Shown: piece after piece, positions 35,114 to 44,384 of the stretch | Layout: the number at the start of each line of letters is the position of its first letter | How positions within the stretch are numbered: the first letter of the stretch is position 1 | Source of the DNA: Candidatus Aegiribacteria sp. MLS_C | GTDB taxonomy: Bacteria > Fermentibacterota > Fermentibacteria > Fermentibacterales > JCC-6 | DNA length: 64,000 nt | NCBI GenBank assembly: GCA_002030045.1 | Contig: LQBI01000002.1 | Coordinates: forward strand, 186,001 to 250,000 | Direction of reading: 5' to 3' | Made by a program: the position numbers and the translations under genes | The notes under the pieces: model-generated | Databases searched by the model: none | Seen by the model: the letters and a program-made list of their open reading frames with translations, nothing else | Told to the model about the DNA's origin: nothing

Positions 35114-37546
35114 TCAGATCTTCTTCCTCCTGAGCATGTTCGCGTTTGTCACCACGGTTATCGAACTCGTGGCCATTGCGATCTCGGCCAGAACCGGGTG
35201 CATGTATCCGATCACTGCCAGGGGGATCATCACGATGTTGTAGAAAAACGCCCAGAACAGGTTCTGGCGTATCTTCCTGAAGGTTTCCCTGCTCAGCCTC
35301 ACCGCTCTGGACACACCCTCGAGGTCCCCCCTTATGAGGGCGATGTCACTGGTCTCGATAGCAACGTCCGTCCCTGTTCCCAGGGCTATGCCCACGTCCG
35401 CTGCAGCCAGTGCTGGAGCGTCATTGATGCCGTCGCCGACGAAGACCACCTTCCCGTACCGTTCCCGCAGCTTTTCTATCTCCCGCACCTTGCCTTCGGG
35501 CAGCACTTCGGCAACCACGCTGCCTATTCCGGCTCCGTCCGCCACCGCCCGTGCGGTAACCGCATTGTCACCGCTTATCATCACCACTTCGAGCCCCATG
35601 TCCCTCAGTTCGGCCACCGTTCCTGAAGCACCCTCCTTCAGCGTATCGGCGACGCCCAGCATTCCCGCAGGTCTTCCGTCCAGGCTGACTATCATCGCTG
35701 TCCTGCCCTGTTCCTCGATCCCTCTGACCTCGCTCTCCAGTCCGGACAGATCCAGGCCTCTCTCCCTCATGAGACCGATGGAGCCGACGATCAGCCTTCT
35801 GCCGTCAAGAAGGGCCTCAACGCCTCTTCCCCTCACCGCCCTGAAACCCTCGACCTCGCGAAGCGTCAGATCCCGCTCCTCCGCTTTCCTGACCACGGCA
35901 CCGGCCAGAGGATGTTCGCTTCCCCTCTCGATGGAAGCGGTTATTCCGAGCAGTTCATTCTCGCCGAAACCTTCACGGGGAACGATGTCCGTGACCACTG
36001 GGGATCCCCTTGTCAGCGTTCCGGTCTTGTCGAAGGCTATGACCCCTGCCTCCCTCATGGTCTGTATGGCGGCGCCCGTCCTGATCAGGATTCCCTTCTC
36101 GGCGCCCATTCCGCTGCCCACCATTATGGCCGTGGGAGTGGCCAGGCCGAGGGCGCAGGGACACGCGATGACGAACACCGAGACCATGGCCACCAGCGCC
36201 AGGGTAAGGTTACCCAGACCCGGTTGCACCCAGGGGAGGAATTCACCCGCCCGAAGGATGCCGCCCATGACTTCCGGCATCAGCATGTGAATAAGGAAGG
36301 TGAGCAGCGCGGTGAGCATGACCGCCGGGACGAACCAGCCGGTGATCCTGTCCGCAAGGGCCTGTATGGGAACCCTGGAGGCCTGGGCCTCCTCCACCAT
36401 TCTTATAACCTGCGCCAGGAAGGTCTCCTTTCCTATCCTGGTGGCCCTGACCCTTATGAGACCGTCACCGTTGACAGTGGCCCCGATGACCTGGTCACCC
36501 GGCCCCTTTCTGACCGGCATGGATTCGCCGGTGGCCATCGATTCGTCGATGTGGGACTCGCCGGAAACCACCTCTCCGTCGGTGGGCACCTTGCCGCCCG
36601 GCCGTACTACCATGATGTCGCCCCTCTGCAGCTCGTCCACCGGAACCTCCACCTGACGTCCCTCCCTCTCGACGGTGGCGGCGAAGGCTCCCAGTTCCAT
36701 CAGCTTCCTGATGGCCCTGGAGGCCTTTCCCTGGGCATTCTGCTCCACGTATCGGCCGGTGAGATGGAAGGCCATTATCATGGCGGACACTCCGGCATAG
36801 CTGGTTATTGGGAAGACCAGGGAGGCCGGTCCCGTCAGGAAGGAGATACCGCTCCCCAGCATTATCAGGGTATCCATGTTGGGATGCATGCCTGCGGCCG
36901 CCCTGAAACCGCTGAAGAAAGTGCTGCCCCCCGCCCATGCCAGGACCGGTAGGGCCAGTGCCATCATTCCCCACCTGTAGACATCCATGGAAGGCCATGC
37001 GACACCGAAAAGCATTTCGGGCACCATCCATACGACTGCCAGGGAGGTGAAGACCCATGCGGCGAGCATCCTCCTCCTGGATTCCCCGAGCTTCCTCTCC
37101 ATACGGTCTTCCGTGAGATCGCCGGCGGTCCCGGCGACATGGTAGCCCGCCTTCTCCACCATACCCGCTATCTCCCCGGGGGTAACCACCGTATCCACGA
37201 ACGTGACCGATGCCCTGTCGGTGGCGAGATTGACCGATGCCTGAAGAACGCCCTCCATGTTTTCCAGGGTCGATGCTATCGTCGCGGCGCAGGACGCGCA
37301 GGACATTCCCTCTATGTCCAGGGATATGGTCTCTGCGTGGACATCATATCCCGCTCCCCTCACCGCCTCTACCAGTGACAGAAGGTCGACCGGTCCATCA
37401 GTTGTGACCGTTGCCTTCTCCGAAGCCAGGCTGACAACGGCTTCCCTAACCCCTTCCACCTTCTGCAGCGCCCCGGTCACGTGCCTTACGCATGCCGCTC
37501 AGGTCATGCCCTCTATCGGCAGTACCAGCTTCCTTACGTCCTTCAT
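35114..37546 (-). CDS. copA: copper-type P1B ATPase (CopA) with in-frame UGA in first metal-binding motif
   Basis: An 810-residue heavy-metal pump if read from the ATG at 37546, which has GGAGAG five bases away. The first HMA domain reads PIEGMT-(UGA)-AACVRHV. The UGA at 37499-37501 replaces the first Cys of GMTCxxC (residue 16), so it is a candidate selenocysteine. Without readthrough, a GTG at 37480 would give 788 residues with a broken HMA. The second HMA is normal (IEGMSCASC). Pump motifs: GESMPV (actuator), [40 protein letters not shown]. It should export Cu(I). It lies 130 bp downstream of the giant C25 gene and has its own likely promoter. Confidence 0.9.
37465..37495 (-). promoter_or_regulatory. 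candidate SECIS-like stem-loop after the copA UGA
   Basis: Starting 3 nt after the UGA, the transcript can form a 7-bp stem GCA(U)GCGU / GCGCUGC with one bulged U, as in bacterial SECIS hairpins. The 16-nt loop begins AAGG and can pair GG/CC internally. An alternative shorter hairpin is UGCGU-AAGGC-ACGUG. The UGA-to-loop distance (11-15 nt) is short for known elements. This is a drawing by eye, not a folded prediction. Confidence 0.35.
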
Positions 37547-37590
37547 TCGACTCTCCAGTGTCAGATGGCTCTGCGTTCAGCTTTGAAGAC

Positions 37591-37619
37591 AGGATATGTC
37601 ATGAAGACCGCCGGGTCAA
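37591..37619 (-). promoter_or_regulatory. likely copA promoter
   Basis: TTGACC, a 17-bp spacer and TATCCT point towards copA, with about 45-50 bp to its ATG. A small GACA-N5-TGTC inverted repeat overlaps the -10 box and might be an operator, though it is short. It supports the ATG at 37546 as the real start, upstream of the UGA. Confidence 0.5.
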
Positions 37620-37676: not shown

Positions 37677-40600
37677 TCATCGGGTCAGGAGAGGTACCGT
37701 GAACCGGCGGTCCCCGGAGGGCATTCCGCGGACGAGGACTCCGTATATCCCGGAGGGAAGATGTCCGGTGTCCAGTGGTATGATGCTGTGTCCCGCCTCC
37801 AGTCCGCCGGTCTCCAGAGCCGCAGTGAGCCTCCCGTCCATGGAGTAGACCAGTGCTTCCAGTCCGCCGGGAACACGCGAGGGGAGTTCCAGTGACAGGA
37901 ATATGCATCCGGAGACGCTCCTGACGCTGCATGCCCCCTCTGCGGGGACTGTGACCGCCTGTCCTGCGACCGTCCGGTTGCCGGACTCGTCCAGCTCACC
38001 GTAGCGGTCATCGGGGTCCAGGACCACGGTCAGCGGCTCGTCGAAGGGTATTCCCCGGTCCAGGGGAATGGCCACCGTGAACAGTCCGTCCCTGAGATCC
38101 AGGAATGCGGACCCGCAGGGCGTACCGTCAGACTCGAGAACCCTTACCTCAACGGGCCGGGAGACCCTTTCCTCCCCTGCGGAACGGATGCCGCCGGAAC
38201 CGGTGATCTCCACTTCGGCTATCATTAACGGGCAGCCGTCCCCGAAGGTTGAGGTGTCTTCCGCGCGCCGGACCGATCCCAGGTGCAGTTCCAGCCCCGG
38301 ATCGAATGGTATGGAGTTGTAGAAGCCGCTCCTGAGTGCATTGTCCTGGTACATGTGCCACCCCCTGTCGTCGTAGAGGAATTCATCGAGGCTGTACAGG
38401 GTGGCTAACCCCGAGTAGTCCACATGAAGTACCTCGGGAACGCCGTTCCCGTCCAGGTCGCACAACGCGGGAGCGCTCCATCCGGCATCCCTTGACCAGG
38501 CGGGGAACCCGTCTATCATGGAGCTTCCCGTGGAGGGGCTGAATCCGCACAAGAGGGAAGAGTAGCACGAGAAGACCGGCATTCCCGGCGCGCCTGAAGC
38601 GGAGAGGAGCCCCGAAACCGGCTGCGACCTTACGTAGTGCCCTCCCTCCTCCAGTATCGGGTTGAACTGGATGGTGTCGCTCACGAAGGAGGTCTCGCCG
38701 GTGGCGAGGTCCCATGCGTAAAGCAGTCCCTCTTTCAGGAACAGGCCGTCGTTGAGCATGTAAAGGAGGTCGAGGTCGGAGTCTCCGTCGGGGTCGCCAA
38801 GGGCCGGCCCGGGGATGTTGCCCCAGAAGTCGCTGCCTGGAAGCCAGTCCGTGGACCATGCGAGGGTCATCCGGCCGGGTCCTCCGTCCAGCTGGTAGAC
38901 GAAGGCTTTCTTTTCCGTACCGCAGGGATCCACTGTGGAGGCGATGCCGGCCAGGTAGAACTCCCCGTCCTGCTCGGCAGAAGCGATGGTCCCGAAGACA
39001 CGGGCGTATTCGCCGCCTGTGTCAAGCTCGTACAGGTTCCTGCGGGCGATCACCGCCGGCTCGTCATGTTCGAAATCCACCACCGTGAGAGCGGTGCCCG
39101 CCCCTGTGCCGATGCTGGTGACGATGAGCTCCTCCAGCCCGTCGCAGTCGAAATCCACCGCCGTCGGCGAGTTGTAGAAGCAACTGAACAGGTCCAGCGG
39201 GAACTCCGGACCGAAGTCGGTCCACTGCCCGTCGGGGGTCATGCGCCAGACACAGAGCTGCGCATCAGTTCCGAAATGGCCCCTCGTCCTGAGCGCAATC
39301 TCCAGGGACTCCCCGCCGTCGGCCTGGAAGAGGACGGGAGTCCCGGCCACCACTGGGGATGCCGCCTGCTGGTTCACTCCGGTCTGTGCTATCTCGTCGC
39401 AGCTCCAGCAGCCTTCAAGCCGGCGGTATAGAAGGACGCCGACCCTCTCCTGTCCCTCTACCTCTATGCTCTTCTGGCAGGTGACCACGATCTCGTTGCC
39501 GGGGGTTCCGTCAACGTTTCCCACCGCGCAGCCGAGGGACCTGTCGAAATCGTATCCCGGAGGAGGTTCCAGTACCGTGAAGGACGCGTCCCTCTCTATC
39601 AGGTATACACTGCCGAAGGATGTCGCCACCACCAGCTCAGGGTATCCGTCCATGTCAATATCGGCCACGGCGGGTCCGCCTCCGGGCGACCCCGAAAGCT
39701 GCAGAGGCCACCCGGGCACTGCCGGTCTGGAGGTGTTGGCAGTCACTTCCGCGGGCTCGGATTCCCTGCCTATCTCATCGATGGCGGTCACGAGCACCAG
39801 GTATTCGCGGCCGGGCTCCAGTCCCTCCACGGTGGCCTGGTTGACCGGTAGAGGGAGGGGAAAGACCCTGCTGACGCTCCCGCCGTCCACCAGGTAGAGG
39901 TAGTAGGCCGTCGCCTCGGGGCATCCCTGGTGGTCCCAGACCAGGCTGACGGTCTCCTGGCCGGTCTCGTATATCCCTGCCCCAACCGGCGGCTGGATTG
40001 TGTCGGACTGCATGCCGCTGACCAGATCCACCTCCACCGTCCTTACCACAGAAGAACCCGCCTTTGAGAGCGCTACGATGTCGAAAGTACACCTCGGGAA
40101 TCCCTGCCGCAGCCAGCTGGACCGGGGTTCCACCGGCAGAACGGTCAGCCGGAGCTCTTCCTCGAGATCGATCACGCCCCCGGGTTCAAGCTGCGGGATG
40201 AACAGGGTATCCGCCCTGAAAGGTTCCGGAGGACTCAGGTTGCCCACCGTAAGCCTGATATCCCTTCCCTCCCCCAGGCCGCTGTTCACCAGCAGAATAT
40301 CGGAGATCCGCACCACGGCGCGGCCCCCGGTCGAGTTTTCCGCAAGGGGATCCATGCAGGTCACCTGGTACTGGTCGGAACATACCGTCAGCTTCAGATC
40401 GGAGACCCAGCGGCGGGGTCCGCCTCCTTCCATGGTGGAAAGGACCAGCCTGAACCCGATGTCCGAGTACTCAGGGACCCCCTTCTCTATCTCCACCACG
40501 AGGGGATCCAGCGACTCAACGGAGGAATCCGCCTCCACATCCGGGAAGAGGCAGGACCAGTCGTGAAGGGCCTTAACGTACTGGCCGCCTGATACGATCT

Positions 40601-42896
40601 CTACGGTGGCGGATACTCCGGCCGCTTCCCTCCCGCCGCTGTTCAGGACCGCGGGGTAGATTTCCACGGTCTCCCCGGGATTGGCCCGGCCGTCGCCTCC
40701 GTCCGGGATCGTGTAGCCGGACAGCGAGAGCACCGGTGCGGACGAGGGCAGCACGTCCACCTGGACGGACACGGGTACGTAATTGCATACCGTAGAACCG
40801 CCCACGCCGGAAACCGACCTGGGCTTGGAAGCCGTGACCCACAGGTCCCCGTCACTGCAGTCGAAGACGGTGACGTCCTCGAAGAGGGTCGTCCCCCCTG
40901 GACCCGTATACTGGACGCAGAACACCTCGCTTTCCTTGTAGAGGCAGACGGTGGCTCCCGGAACGGGATCGGAGCCGTCGGTAACGGTCACCAGAAGGTC
41001 CGACGGCGCTCCCTCCACCATGACCATCGGCGGGAGGGTTACCTCAAGCTGAGTCGGTGTGTCCCTCCAGACGCGCATCAGGGGAGATCCCAGGAGGTTC
41101 AGGAGAACGAAGGATATCCCGTCAACGTTCTTCGATATCCTGTGGGCCTCCCCGAGGTAGCTGACCGGCCAGTGGGCGGTTTCTATCCCGTGGAGACCGG
41201 AGGTGTAACCGGTGTTGAAGAGTGCGTCAGCAAAGACGAAATAGGTGACCTTCTGGCTGAAAAGTCCGTACCTGGCGTTGGCGATCACGGCAGCCAGACC
41301 AGTGCCAGGGGATGTGAGCATACCGGCTTCCGCGAAACAGTCGGCGCCGTCGAAATGGCCGGGGCCGCAGCCCAGGGTCCACAGTATGGAGGGAACCGAG
41401 GCGTTCGACATGGTGGCGAAGTCCGAGTCCCACATGTACTGTCCCAGGCTGTTCTTGCCCGCAGTGGCCAGCTTGTGGGTCTCGGAATGGTCAGCGTGGA
41501 GAATGAGGTTGAAACCCCTGTCGAAGGCCTCCAGTGCGTTTGCCCTGCAGAGGTCTCCAGCCGGGAGCGAATGAGGGTAGTAGAGCTCCTCCGGCTCGTC
41601 AAGGTAGAGGGGCACGGCCCCTGAGGATTCGAAGAGCGCCCTGAGCTCCATCATGTCATCGGCGGCGGTTCCGCATACATCGTTGGAGCCCATCATGAGG
41701 ATACTCCTGCCGAATCCTTCCGGAGGGTCCTCCGGCCTTTCGTATAGAAGGGTCTTGGCAAGCATTGTGTTGACGTCTACCGGGTCGTTAACCGGCCATC
41801 GGCCGACGCACAGGTCGAGGTATCCGTTCTGGTAGCCGGTGCTCCACAACCCGTCACCGCTGACCCAGTCCCCGTCTATGTCCCCGTAGTAGTCGTCAGA
41901 AGGCATCTGGAAGGTAGGGAACGGGTATGTAACGTATGCCCAGCCGTTGCACTGCCGCACGGGGACGACGCCGTCGTCGCCTCCCAGAAGAACCGCCTGG
42001 GTCCCCCAGTACTGGTGCGCGTCGCGGATGAAGTTCCTTATTCTCTCAGGCGTGTCGCAGCCCGAATAGTTCTCCTGTATCCACTGGACGGTCCGGACCG
42101 CGGTGGCGATTCCCTCCCTGTTCCTGATGCTCGCCAGTTCGGTGAAGGATTCCTCGAGGCTGGAGTCGGTTATTATCAGGAGGTCCACGCAGTCGCCCGT
42201 CGATGAGGGCCCGGCGGTGATCTCGAGGGGACGGCTCCGTCCGGCGAATGACACGGGCTGGGGGGACGAGTACAGGACCGTGTCCCCGGGATTGCATACC
42301 AGGGCCAGTATGCCTCTCTCACGCATCTCTCCGCTCCAGCGGTTCTCCCTGAGCGGGTGGAGCCTCTCCCTCGAACAAACGGAGGGGTGAATGGACACAT
42401 CCACTGAGGTGAGTACCTCCACGCAGCCGTCGGAAGGCCGGTACCGGACCGGGCTGGCGGTGAGGGTGGCCACCGAGAAGCCCATCGCCGATCCCTGGCG
42501 GGAAACGGATACCGGAGATGCCGGGAAGACGGAGTCCTCCCCGTAGATCCCCTGATCCGGCGGAATGAAGACGGAATCGTCGGTCAGGCCCCTCTGCCTT
42601 GGCATGAGCAGGTAGCTGCCGGGAAGGGGAACCCATGTCTCCCCGAATATCTCGAGGTGGTCCACCTCGGTGTCCGGAGGAAGCAGGTAGGTCCGGGAGA
42701 CCGCCGGCAGTAGCGGCTCACCCGGCATCCAGAGGCCGTCACCCCAGCCCCCGTAGCCATCAACGGAGAGCACGTGGTACTGAACGCCCTCCACTGACAC
42801 CGTGTCAACAGTGACTTCAGATGGATCGGCGCAGGGCTGGAGGTCGACCTCGATGGGCAACATGGCCAGCAGCATCGCCAGTGAAGCTGTATACAT
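37677..42896 (-). CDS. giant C25 (gingipain-family) peptidase with FG-GAP-like repeats and sorting module
   Basis: A 1739-residue secreted protein. Signal peptide about 1-14; propeptide-like region to about 230; C25 domain about 235-620, with FNLILHADHSETHKL (catalytic His near 470) and ILWTLGCGPGHFDGADC (Cys510). Then come beta domains, one CARDB-like (IPDGGDGRANPGETVEIYP), a fibronectin-III-like part (VEGLEPGREYLVLVTAI), and FG-GAP/VCBS-type calcium-binding repeats (VADIDMDGYPELVVAT, VDFDCDGLEELIVTS, GDPDGDSDLDLLYML, CDLDGNGVPEVLHVD). The C-terminus is a FlgD-like module (VYSMDGRLTAALE, SGIYGVLVR). It is probably a surface adhesin-protease. The start is the only plausible one before the divergent serpin. 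Confidence 0.85.
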   Translation of the reverse strand: MYTASLAMLLAMLPIEVDLQPCADPSEVTVDTVSVEGVQYHVLSVDGYGGWGDGLWMPGEPLLPAVSRTYLLPPDTEVDHLEIFGETWVPLPGSYLLMPRQRGLTDDSVFIPPDQGIYGEDSVFPASPVSVSRQGSAMGFSVATLTASPVRYRPSDGCVEVLTSVDVSIHPSVCSRERLHPLRENRWSGEMRERGILALVCNPGDTVLYSSPQPVSFAGRSRPLEITAGPSSTGDCVDLLIITDSSLEESFTELASIRNREGIATAVRTVQWIQENYSGCDTPERIRNFIRDAHQYWGTQAVLLGGDDGVVPVRQCNGWAYVTYPFPTFQMPSDDYYGDIDGDWVSGDGLWSTGYQNGYLDLCVGRWPVNDPVDVNTMLAKTLLYERPEDPPEGFGRSILMMGSNDVCGTAADDMMELRALFESSGAVPLYLDEPEELYYPHSLPAGDLCRANALEAFDRGFNLILHADHSETHKLATAGKNSLGQYMWDSDFATMSNASVPSILWTLGCGPGHFDGADCFAEAGMLTSPGTGLAAVIANARYGLFSQKVTYFVFADALFNTGYTSGLHGIETAHWPVSYLGEAHRISKNVDGISFVLLNLLGSPLMRVWRDTPTQLEVTLPPMVMVEGAPSDLLVTVTDGSDPVPGATVCLYKESEVFCVQYTGPGGTTLFEDVTVFDCSDGDLWVTASKPRSVSGVGGSTVCNYVPVSVQVDVLPSSAPVLSLSGYTIPDGGDGRANPGETVEIYPAVLNSGGREAAGVSATVEIVSGGQYVKALHDWSCLFPDVEADSSVESLDPLVVEIEKGVPEYSDIGFRLVLSTMEGGGPRRWVSDLKLTVCSDQYQVTCMDPLAENSTGGRAVVRISDILLVNSGLGEGRDIRLTVGNLSPPEPFRADTLFIPQLEPGGVIDLEEELRLTVLPVEPRSSWLRQGFPRCTFDIVALSKAGSSVVRTVEVDLVSGMQSDTIQPPVGAGIYETGQETVSLVWDHQGCPEATAYYLYLVDGGSVSRVFPLPLPVNQATVEGLEPGREYLVLVTAIDEIGRESEPAEVTANTSRPAVPGWPLQLSGSPGGGPAVADIDMDGYPELVVATSFGSVYLIERDASFTVLEPPPGYDFDRSLGCAVGNVDGTPGNEIVVTCQKSIEVEGQERVGVLLYRRLEGCWSCDEIAQTGVNQQAASPVVAGTPVLFQADGGESLEIALRTRGHFGTDAQLCVWRMTPDGQWTDFGPEFPLDLFSCFYNSPTAVDFDCDGLEELIVTSIGTGAGTALTVVDFEHDEPAVIARRNLYELDTGGEYARVFGTIASAEQDGEFYLAGIASTVDPCGTEKKAFVYQLDGGPGRMTLAWSTDWLPGSDFWGNIPGPALGDPDGDSDLDLLYMLNDGLFLKEGLLYAWDLATGETSFVSDTIQFNPILEEGGHYVRSQPVSGLLSASGAPGMPVFSCYSSLLCGFSPSTGSSMIDGFPAWSRDAGWSAPALCDLDGNGVPEVLHVDYSGLATLYSLDEFLYDDRGWHMYQDNALRSGFYNSIPFDPGLELHLGSVRRAEDTSTFGDGCPLMIAEVEITGSGGIRSAGEERVSRPVEVRVLESDGTPCGSAFLDLRDGLFTVAIPLDRGIPFDEPLTVVLDPDDRYGELDESGNRTVAGQAVTVPAEGACSVRSVSGCIFLSLELPSRVPGGLEALVYSMDGRLTAALETGGLEAGHSIIPLDTGHLPSGIYGVLVRGMPSGDRRFTVPLLTR

Positions 42897-43124
42897 CGCC
42901 CGTCCGCCCGTTCAGTTGGCTGTCCCGGCTTCCGCGCCGCGGACCCTGTGAGCCCTACCGCCTTCAGCCATAACAATAAGGGGCGGCGGTTCCCGGTGTC
43001 AAAACCCGCGGAGGAAAAACTCGGGGGAGTCCGGAGATTCCCCGAGGGTGGCGGCGGAGGGCCCGGACGGGAATATTCCAGACTGTGTCCAGTACAAAGG
43101 AATGACTTGAAGACGGGAGTTGTC

Positions 43125-44384
43125 ATGAGAAACTCAGCTGTCCTTTGTTCGCTTGTGATACTGCTGCTGGCTGCGTCCGCCGGCTGTTCCACCAACGGGA
43201 GCACTCCCCCCGACGGGTCCGGGACCATTGCTGGGTCCCCTTCCACGGAGGACCTTGTCCGAGGAGGCAACATCTTCGCAGTGGAACTGTACGGAATGGT
43301 CTCCTCGGATGAGGCCCCCGGGAACGTGTTCTTCTCGCCGATCAGCATATCCTCCGCACTGGCGATGACCTATGCCGGAGCCAGGGGCGAGACCGCACTG
43401 CAGATGGACCGCGTAATGCACTACGGCACGCCTCCGGAGGGAATAGCGGAAGTCTACGGTACCTTCATGTCCTCTCTCGGGTCGGGCCGGGCCGCCGCCG
43501 CGGGTGATGGAGAACCGCTGACCCTCTCCGTGGCCAACGGCCTGTGGGTGCAGGAAGGCTTCGATCTTCTCGGGGATTTCACCCGGGAGATGGAGGACTC
43601 CTTCGATGCCGCCGTCGAGAACCTTGATTTCGAGGACGACGAAGAGGGAGCAAGACGGAGGATCAACGGATGGGTTGCCGAGAAGACCATGGACAGGATA
43701 ACCGATCTTATCCCTCCGGGCCTTCTTGCGCCGGAGACCAGGGTGGTCCTCACCAATGCGGTTTATTTCAAGGCTTCATGGGACAAGCCATTCGAGGAGT
43801 CCCTCACCGGCGACGGCAGGTTCCTCCTGAGGGACGGAGGGGCGGTCGAGGTACCCATGATGCGCCAGACAGACTACTTCGACTTCGCGGCCACAGAAGG
43901 CTGCAGGGCGGTGGAGCTGCCCTACGCCGGCGGGAGCGCGTCGATGCTCATAATCCTTCCCGACGATGACATCCTGGAATTCCAGGAAGGACTTGATGCT
44001 GACCTGGTCCGGACGATCAGGGACAGGATGTCGATGGTCAACCTTGCCCTGACCATGCCCCGGTTCGAGTACTCGGCCACGATACAGCTGGGGCCGGTGC
44101 TCAGGTCCATGGGCATGGAGGCTCCGTTCACCGGCGGCGCGGACTTCAGCGGTTTCACGGGAGGGCCGGACCTTTACATCTCAGAGGTGATCCACAAGGC
44201 ATTCGTGAAGGTGGACGAATCCGGCACGGAGGCCGCTGCGGCCACAGCCGTCGTCATGAACTTTACCGCCATGCCTGTCCAGCCCGAGGAGATGAACATC
44301 AACAGGCCCTTCATATTCCTGATAATGGATTCAGAGACGGAAGCGGTACTGTTCATGGGAAGGGTGATGGATCCCTCCGTCTGA
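43125..44384 (+). CDS. serpin lipoprotein
   Basis: A 419-residue protein. The chosen ATG (GGGAG site) gives a lipoprotein signal with lipobox around ASAGC. The serpin fold is clear: NVFFSPISISSALAMTYAGA, NGLWVQEGF, VVLTNAVYFKASWDKPF, MMRQTDYFDF, AVELPYAGGSASMLIILP, and the C-terminal NRPFIFLIMDSETEAVLFMGR. The reactive-loop hinge is inhibitory in type (DESGTEAAAATAVV), with the scissile bond expected near NFTAM. It would trap serine or cysteine proteases in the periplasm or at the surface. It is divergent from the giant C25 peptidase gene, which suggests self-protection from, or control of, that protease. Confidence 0.95.
   Translation: MRNSAVLCSLVILLLAASAGCSTNGSTPPDGSGTIAGSPSTEDLVRGGNIFAVELYGMVSSDEAPGNVFFSPISISSALAMTYAGARGETALQMDRVMHYGTPPEGIAEVYGTFMSSLGSGRAAAAGDGEPLTLSVANGLWVQEGFDLLGDFTREMEDSFDAAVENLDFEDDEEGARRRINGWVAEKTMDRITDLIPPGLLAPETRVVLTNAVYFKASWDKPFEESLTGDGRFLLRDGGAVEVPMMRQTDYFDFAATEGCRAVELPYAGGSASMLIILPDDDILEFQEGLDADLVRTIRDRMSMVNLALTMPRFEYSATIQLGPVLRSMGMEAPFTGGADFSGFTGGPDLYISEVIHKAFVKVDESGTEAAAATAVVMNFTAMPVQPEEMNINRPFIFLIMDSETEAVLFMGRVMDPSV

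Follow-up and report, generated by a model that had tools for sequence, protein, structure and literature searches.

A candidate selenocysteine at the first metal-binding cysteine of a CopA-type copper ATPase in Candidatus Aegiribacteria

Introduction

Cation-transporting ATPases that contain selenocysteine (Sec) are already listed among selenoproteins in Table 3 of PMC5029168, where they number 32. A UxxC motif is given for the Sec cation-transporting ATPase in PMC2398784 and in PMC13188914, the latter giving it together with TIGR01525.

We analyzed a 64,000-nucleotide stretch of Candidatus Aegiribacteria sp. MLS_C (contig LQBI01000002.1, positions 186,001 to 250,000; hereafter the window), which belongs to an assembly of 2.98 Mb that is 97.65% complete. 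A sequence-only reading of the window had proposed Sec in the first CxxC motif of a copper ATPase gene, copA, and knew of no Sec-containing CopA of this kind. The second of these statements is overtaken by the sources named above, in which the family already appears as UxxC ATPases.

Results

The window copA gene lies at positions 35114–37546 on the minus strand, and profile and domain matches identify it as a P1B-type heavy-metal (copper) ATPase. TIGR01525 matched it with 613.6 bits (E 3.8e-184; cut-off 346) and the copper subfamily TIGR01511 with 534.5 bits (cut-off 397). Its domains comprise two copies of PF00403 (HMA), PF00122 (E1-E2 ATPase) and PF00702 (hydrolase/HAD), and the translation contains the CPC motif, as IACPCALG, and DKTGT. 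The gene spans 811 codons, or 810 residues with UGA read as Sec. From the ATG at 37546, the frame reads through PIEGMT to an in-frame TGA at 37499–37501 (minus strand), continues with AACVRHV and a total of 794 sense codons, and ends at a terminal TGA at 35116–35114. Alignment and translation place the in-frame TGA, proposed as Sec-16, exactly at the first Cys of the GMTCxxC motif in HMA1 (approximately residues 5–70, with GMT-U-AAC; 37337–37534, minus strand; best PF00403 stretch, residues 9–68). HMA2 (approximately residues 72–138; 37133–37333, minus strand) retains an all-Cys GMSCASC. A ribosome-binding site, GGAG, was read by eye at 37553–37556 (minus strand), about 7 nt before the ATG. 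These features agree with the sequence-only reading, including its promoter-like sequence upstream of the ATG, which is present as a weak sigma-70-like match (TTGACC-17-TATCCT; 37591–37619, minus strand; 9/12 positions, one found against 0.6 expected in shuffles). A standard ORF call moves the start to the GTG at 37480, which trims the protein by 22 residues and hides the metal site. Upstream of copA lie a large C25 (gingipain-family) peptidase gene with FG-GAP repeats (37677–42896, minus strand) and, beyond it, a gene for a serpin-family protease inhibitor (42948–44384, plus strand).

A recent nonsense mutation offers another account of the in-frame TGA: a TGC or TGT codon would have been changed to TGA, HMA1 would be lost, and translation restarting at a GTG or a later codon downstream would yield a working CopA that carries HMA2 only. 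The first in-frame GTG past the UGA (37478–37480, minus strand; 18 nt after it) is available for such a restart, and homologues with a single HMA domain exist, L019 among them, so HMA1 may be dispensable. This account has to contend with an ATG and ribosome-binding site placed just 15 codons before the UGA, and with an HMA1 that shows no sign of decay in its PF00403 match and fits the HMA profile better than HMA2 does. Moreover, of the 179 single-base changes in copA that would produce a nonsense codon, only one gives TGA at the HMA1 first Cys. We regard a nonsense mutation as improbable.

The genome carries the complete set of Sec genes looked for, namely selA (511 bits), selB directly adjoining it, selD, and a tRNA-Sec with anticodon tca (UCA). 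SelB retains its C-terminal winged-helix domains. A lack of Sec machinery, which the sequence-only reading had named as a refutation, is therefore not observed. The selD gene (L158, G000:C32:128345-129268) has an in-frame UGA of its own, in the context YGPCAG-UGA-AGKLNP, and among 42 genomes searched around the window genome a single in-frame TGA is present in nearly all selD genes of its order. In this lineage the selD UGA is followed after about 21 nt by a hairpin with an AGGYU loop and paired changes in its stem, as read by eye. Judged from these genes, SelD of the order is a selenoprotein itself, and Sec decoding is established in the order because UGA-containing selD occurs across it. Formate dehydrogenase was considered as a further selenoprotein and rejected, the one match being below cut-off and without UGA.

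The same genomic setting bears on two further explanations. The UGA could be read as some other residue, by a suppressor tRNA or under a reassigned code; no support for this was found, and it would have to accommodate a dedicated UGA-reading tRNA-Sec in the genome, a copA gene that itself terminates at TGA, and Cys at the position in nearly all homologues. The chance that it is correct is negligible. An error of base calling or assembly at one position, with TGC or TGT read as TGA, draws on the fact that the TGA rests on a single assembly. Such an error, like a nonsense mutation, would have to strike one out of 179 possible single-base nonsense changes, at the one residue where Sec and Cys are known to replace each other, and in a Sec-decoding genome; we consider it very improbable.

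Homologues were compared at the critical codon. In those from named genomes, the HMA1 first-Cys codon is TGC or TGT in nearly all, and Candidatus Aquicultor primus copA has TGA at this position. Across 134 homologous loci, all TGA stops within the aligned part fall at the HMA1 first Cys and come from nine Aquicultoria genomes; six other loci have one TAA or TAG each, mostly at a domain or alignment edge. UGA/Cys exchange in relatives, one of the signs by which the sequence-only reading was to be judged, is thus seen exactly at the HMA1 first Cys in nine Aquicultoria genes, and the 134 loci show no random stops in the region. The recurrence of the UGA at this residue in another clade, together with the UxxC motif of the literature, again speaks against a nonsense mutation in the window gene. 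One CopA homologue (L021, from G042) has Phe (TTT) instead of the HMA1 first Cys, giving GMSFASC, and its genome has selA. No close orthologue of the window copA was found in 18 same-genus genomes.

A search of 36 Aquicultoria genomes recovered nine copA genes (L126–L128 and L130–L135) with exactly one TGA, always as GMT-UGA-ASC. A selA match was present in seven of the nine genomes; incompleteness may explain its lack in the other two (G060 and G067, 1.8 and 2.0 Mb). Pairwise identity at synonymous codons averaged 0.49 over the nine genes and rose to 0.86–0.88 in ten-codon windows starting at codon +5 or +6 past the UGA, the top of 494. Most of the genes have a stem CGCCG/CGGCG with the GG-containing loop CGUGGAAA, 17 nt downstream of the UGA; L131 and L126 vary from this common stem-loop. 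The Aquicultoria HMA2 has almost the same peptide as the HMA1 region, in partly other codons and without the stem. Because this signal after the UGA lies at the RNA level, in codon conservation and a stem-loop, Sec insertion at the HMA1 first-Cys residue is well supported in Aquicultoria as a reading of the genes. The A. primus copA is divergent from a CsoR-type repressor gene (L045:2365-2640).

A comparable signal was sought after the window UGA. The bSECIS rule given in PMC13188914 places the apical loop 16–37 nt after the UGA, with G in the first two loop positions; the same source describes certain bacterial selenoprotein genes that depart from such rules. In the expected bacterial SECIS region (37442–37498, minus strand), folding stability did not exceed that of dinucleotide shuffles (z −0.53 to +1.18). 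The best rule-fitting hairpin, CGCU-GCAGAA-GGUG, has −8.6 kcal/mol and is not above background, 38% of random window TGAs scoring as low. Another hairpin, UGCGU-AAGGC-ACGUG, can be drawn, but its distance from the UGA is just 11 nt. Nothing in copA corresponds to the AGGYU hairpin of the lineage's selD. Two stem-loops had been proposed after the UGA: they can indeed be drawn, but as a SECIS they are not convincing, rising above neither shuffles nor random TGAs. Scored in the same way, the UGA in this genome's selD gave −9.1 kcal/mol, at the 35th percentile of background. Because this true site ranks so low, the hairpin score does not discriminate, and RNAfold z-scores and the bSECIS-rule score were set aside as proof. 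The SECIS of the window copA is the weak point of the Sec reading, and the lack of a good SECIS here counts in favor of a nonsense mutation.

In the ATPase tree (FastTree, local support only), the window copA groups with Cys homologues of Halanaerobium, spirochaete and other origin, outside the Aquicultoria Sec clade. A common origin with the Aquicultoria Sec-CopA was rejected, as the starred branches of this tree force two changes. Because the nine Aquicultoria genes are not its sister group on this tree, Sec at the HMA1 residue of the window gene and of these nine probably arose at least twice. In a tree of HMA1 only, Aquicultoria HMA1 is nearest to that of the window gene but without resolution, so a domain swap may have occurred.

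Further cases were sought with the pattern GMT/S-UGA-xxCV. Across the 42 genomes it returned Sec copA genes only. Among 2.9 million viral contigs, none of its 76 hits was an HMA-like match, and no CopA relative was found. The plasmid search returned at least 5000 records with homologues below 60% identity. No further Sec-CopA was present in 395 Desulfobacterota genomes, which yielded one stand-alone Sec HMA protein only. This small protein (L202, G436:C289:987-1009) reads VSGMT-UGA-QHCVARV, has a hairpin UUGCC-CGGGU-GGCAA just past the UGA, and by its sequence is a probable Sec CopZ/MerP-like protein.

Discussion

We propose that UGA codon 16 of the window copA is read as selenocysteine in HMA1, with a probability of roughly 80%. 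This reading is favored because the UGA/Cys pair is exact, the Sec machinery is complete, and the UGA is conserved in a distant clade. SelB and tRNA-Sec would decode the codon in the window organism with the help of a local SECIS after it, and the product would be a copper(I)-exporting P1B-type ATPase, with copper as its likely substrate. The HMA1 site would become Sec-x-x-Cys (GMTUAAC) in place of Cys-x-x-Cys, while HMA2 and the membrane CPC site would stay cysteine. A selenolate in HMA1 would have a higher affinity for soft metals (Cu+, Ag+, Hg2+) and oxidize more readily, and might thereby tune regulation or metal loading rather than transport proper. To our knowledge, Sec as a metal ligand rather than a redox catalyst has been little studied. 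A more specific scenario, in which Sec arose independently in the window lineage and SelB works with a SECIS that is non-canonical or very weak and differs from the selD element, is doubtful.

Comparison with known systems places the locus among several relatives. Ordinary CopA proteins (copper P1B-1 ATPases) share its domain order and its CPC, DKTGT and HP motifs, but have Cys where the window copA has UGA. Sec also occurs in the HMA motif of stand-alone proteins: the UxxU metal-binding (seleno)protein of NCBIfam NF041115, MerP-like selenoproteins and L202 are all small and separate, outside any ATPase. The Aquicultoria Sec-CopA resembles the window copA in its two HMA domains, its GMT-UGA-[AS]xC in HMA1 and its all-Cys HMA2, yet is 43–46% identical, occupies a separate branch of the ATPase tree and, unlike the window gene, has a clear SECIS-like hairpin and, at L045, an adjoining CsoR-type repressor gene. 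ABB15669.1, as described in PMC2398784, PMC5029168 and PMC13188914, belongs like the window copA to the TIGR01525/COG2217 family and has UxxC with Sec first; it comes from a different bacterial lineage, and its motif suggests the same residue and domain. Taken together, the window copA is a further example of an already known kind of Sec pump and not a new kind; it would extend Sec-containing copper pumps to one more lineage and suggests that Cys has been exchanged for Sec repeatedly at a single metal-binding residue.
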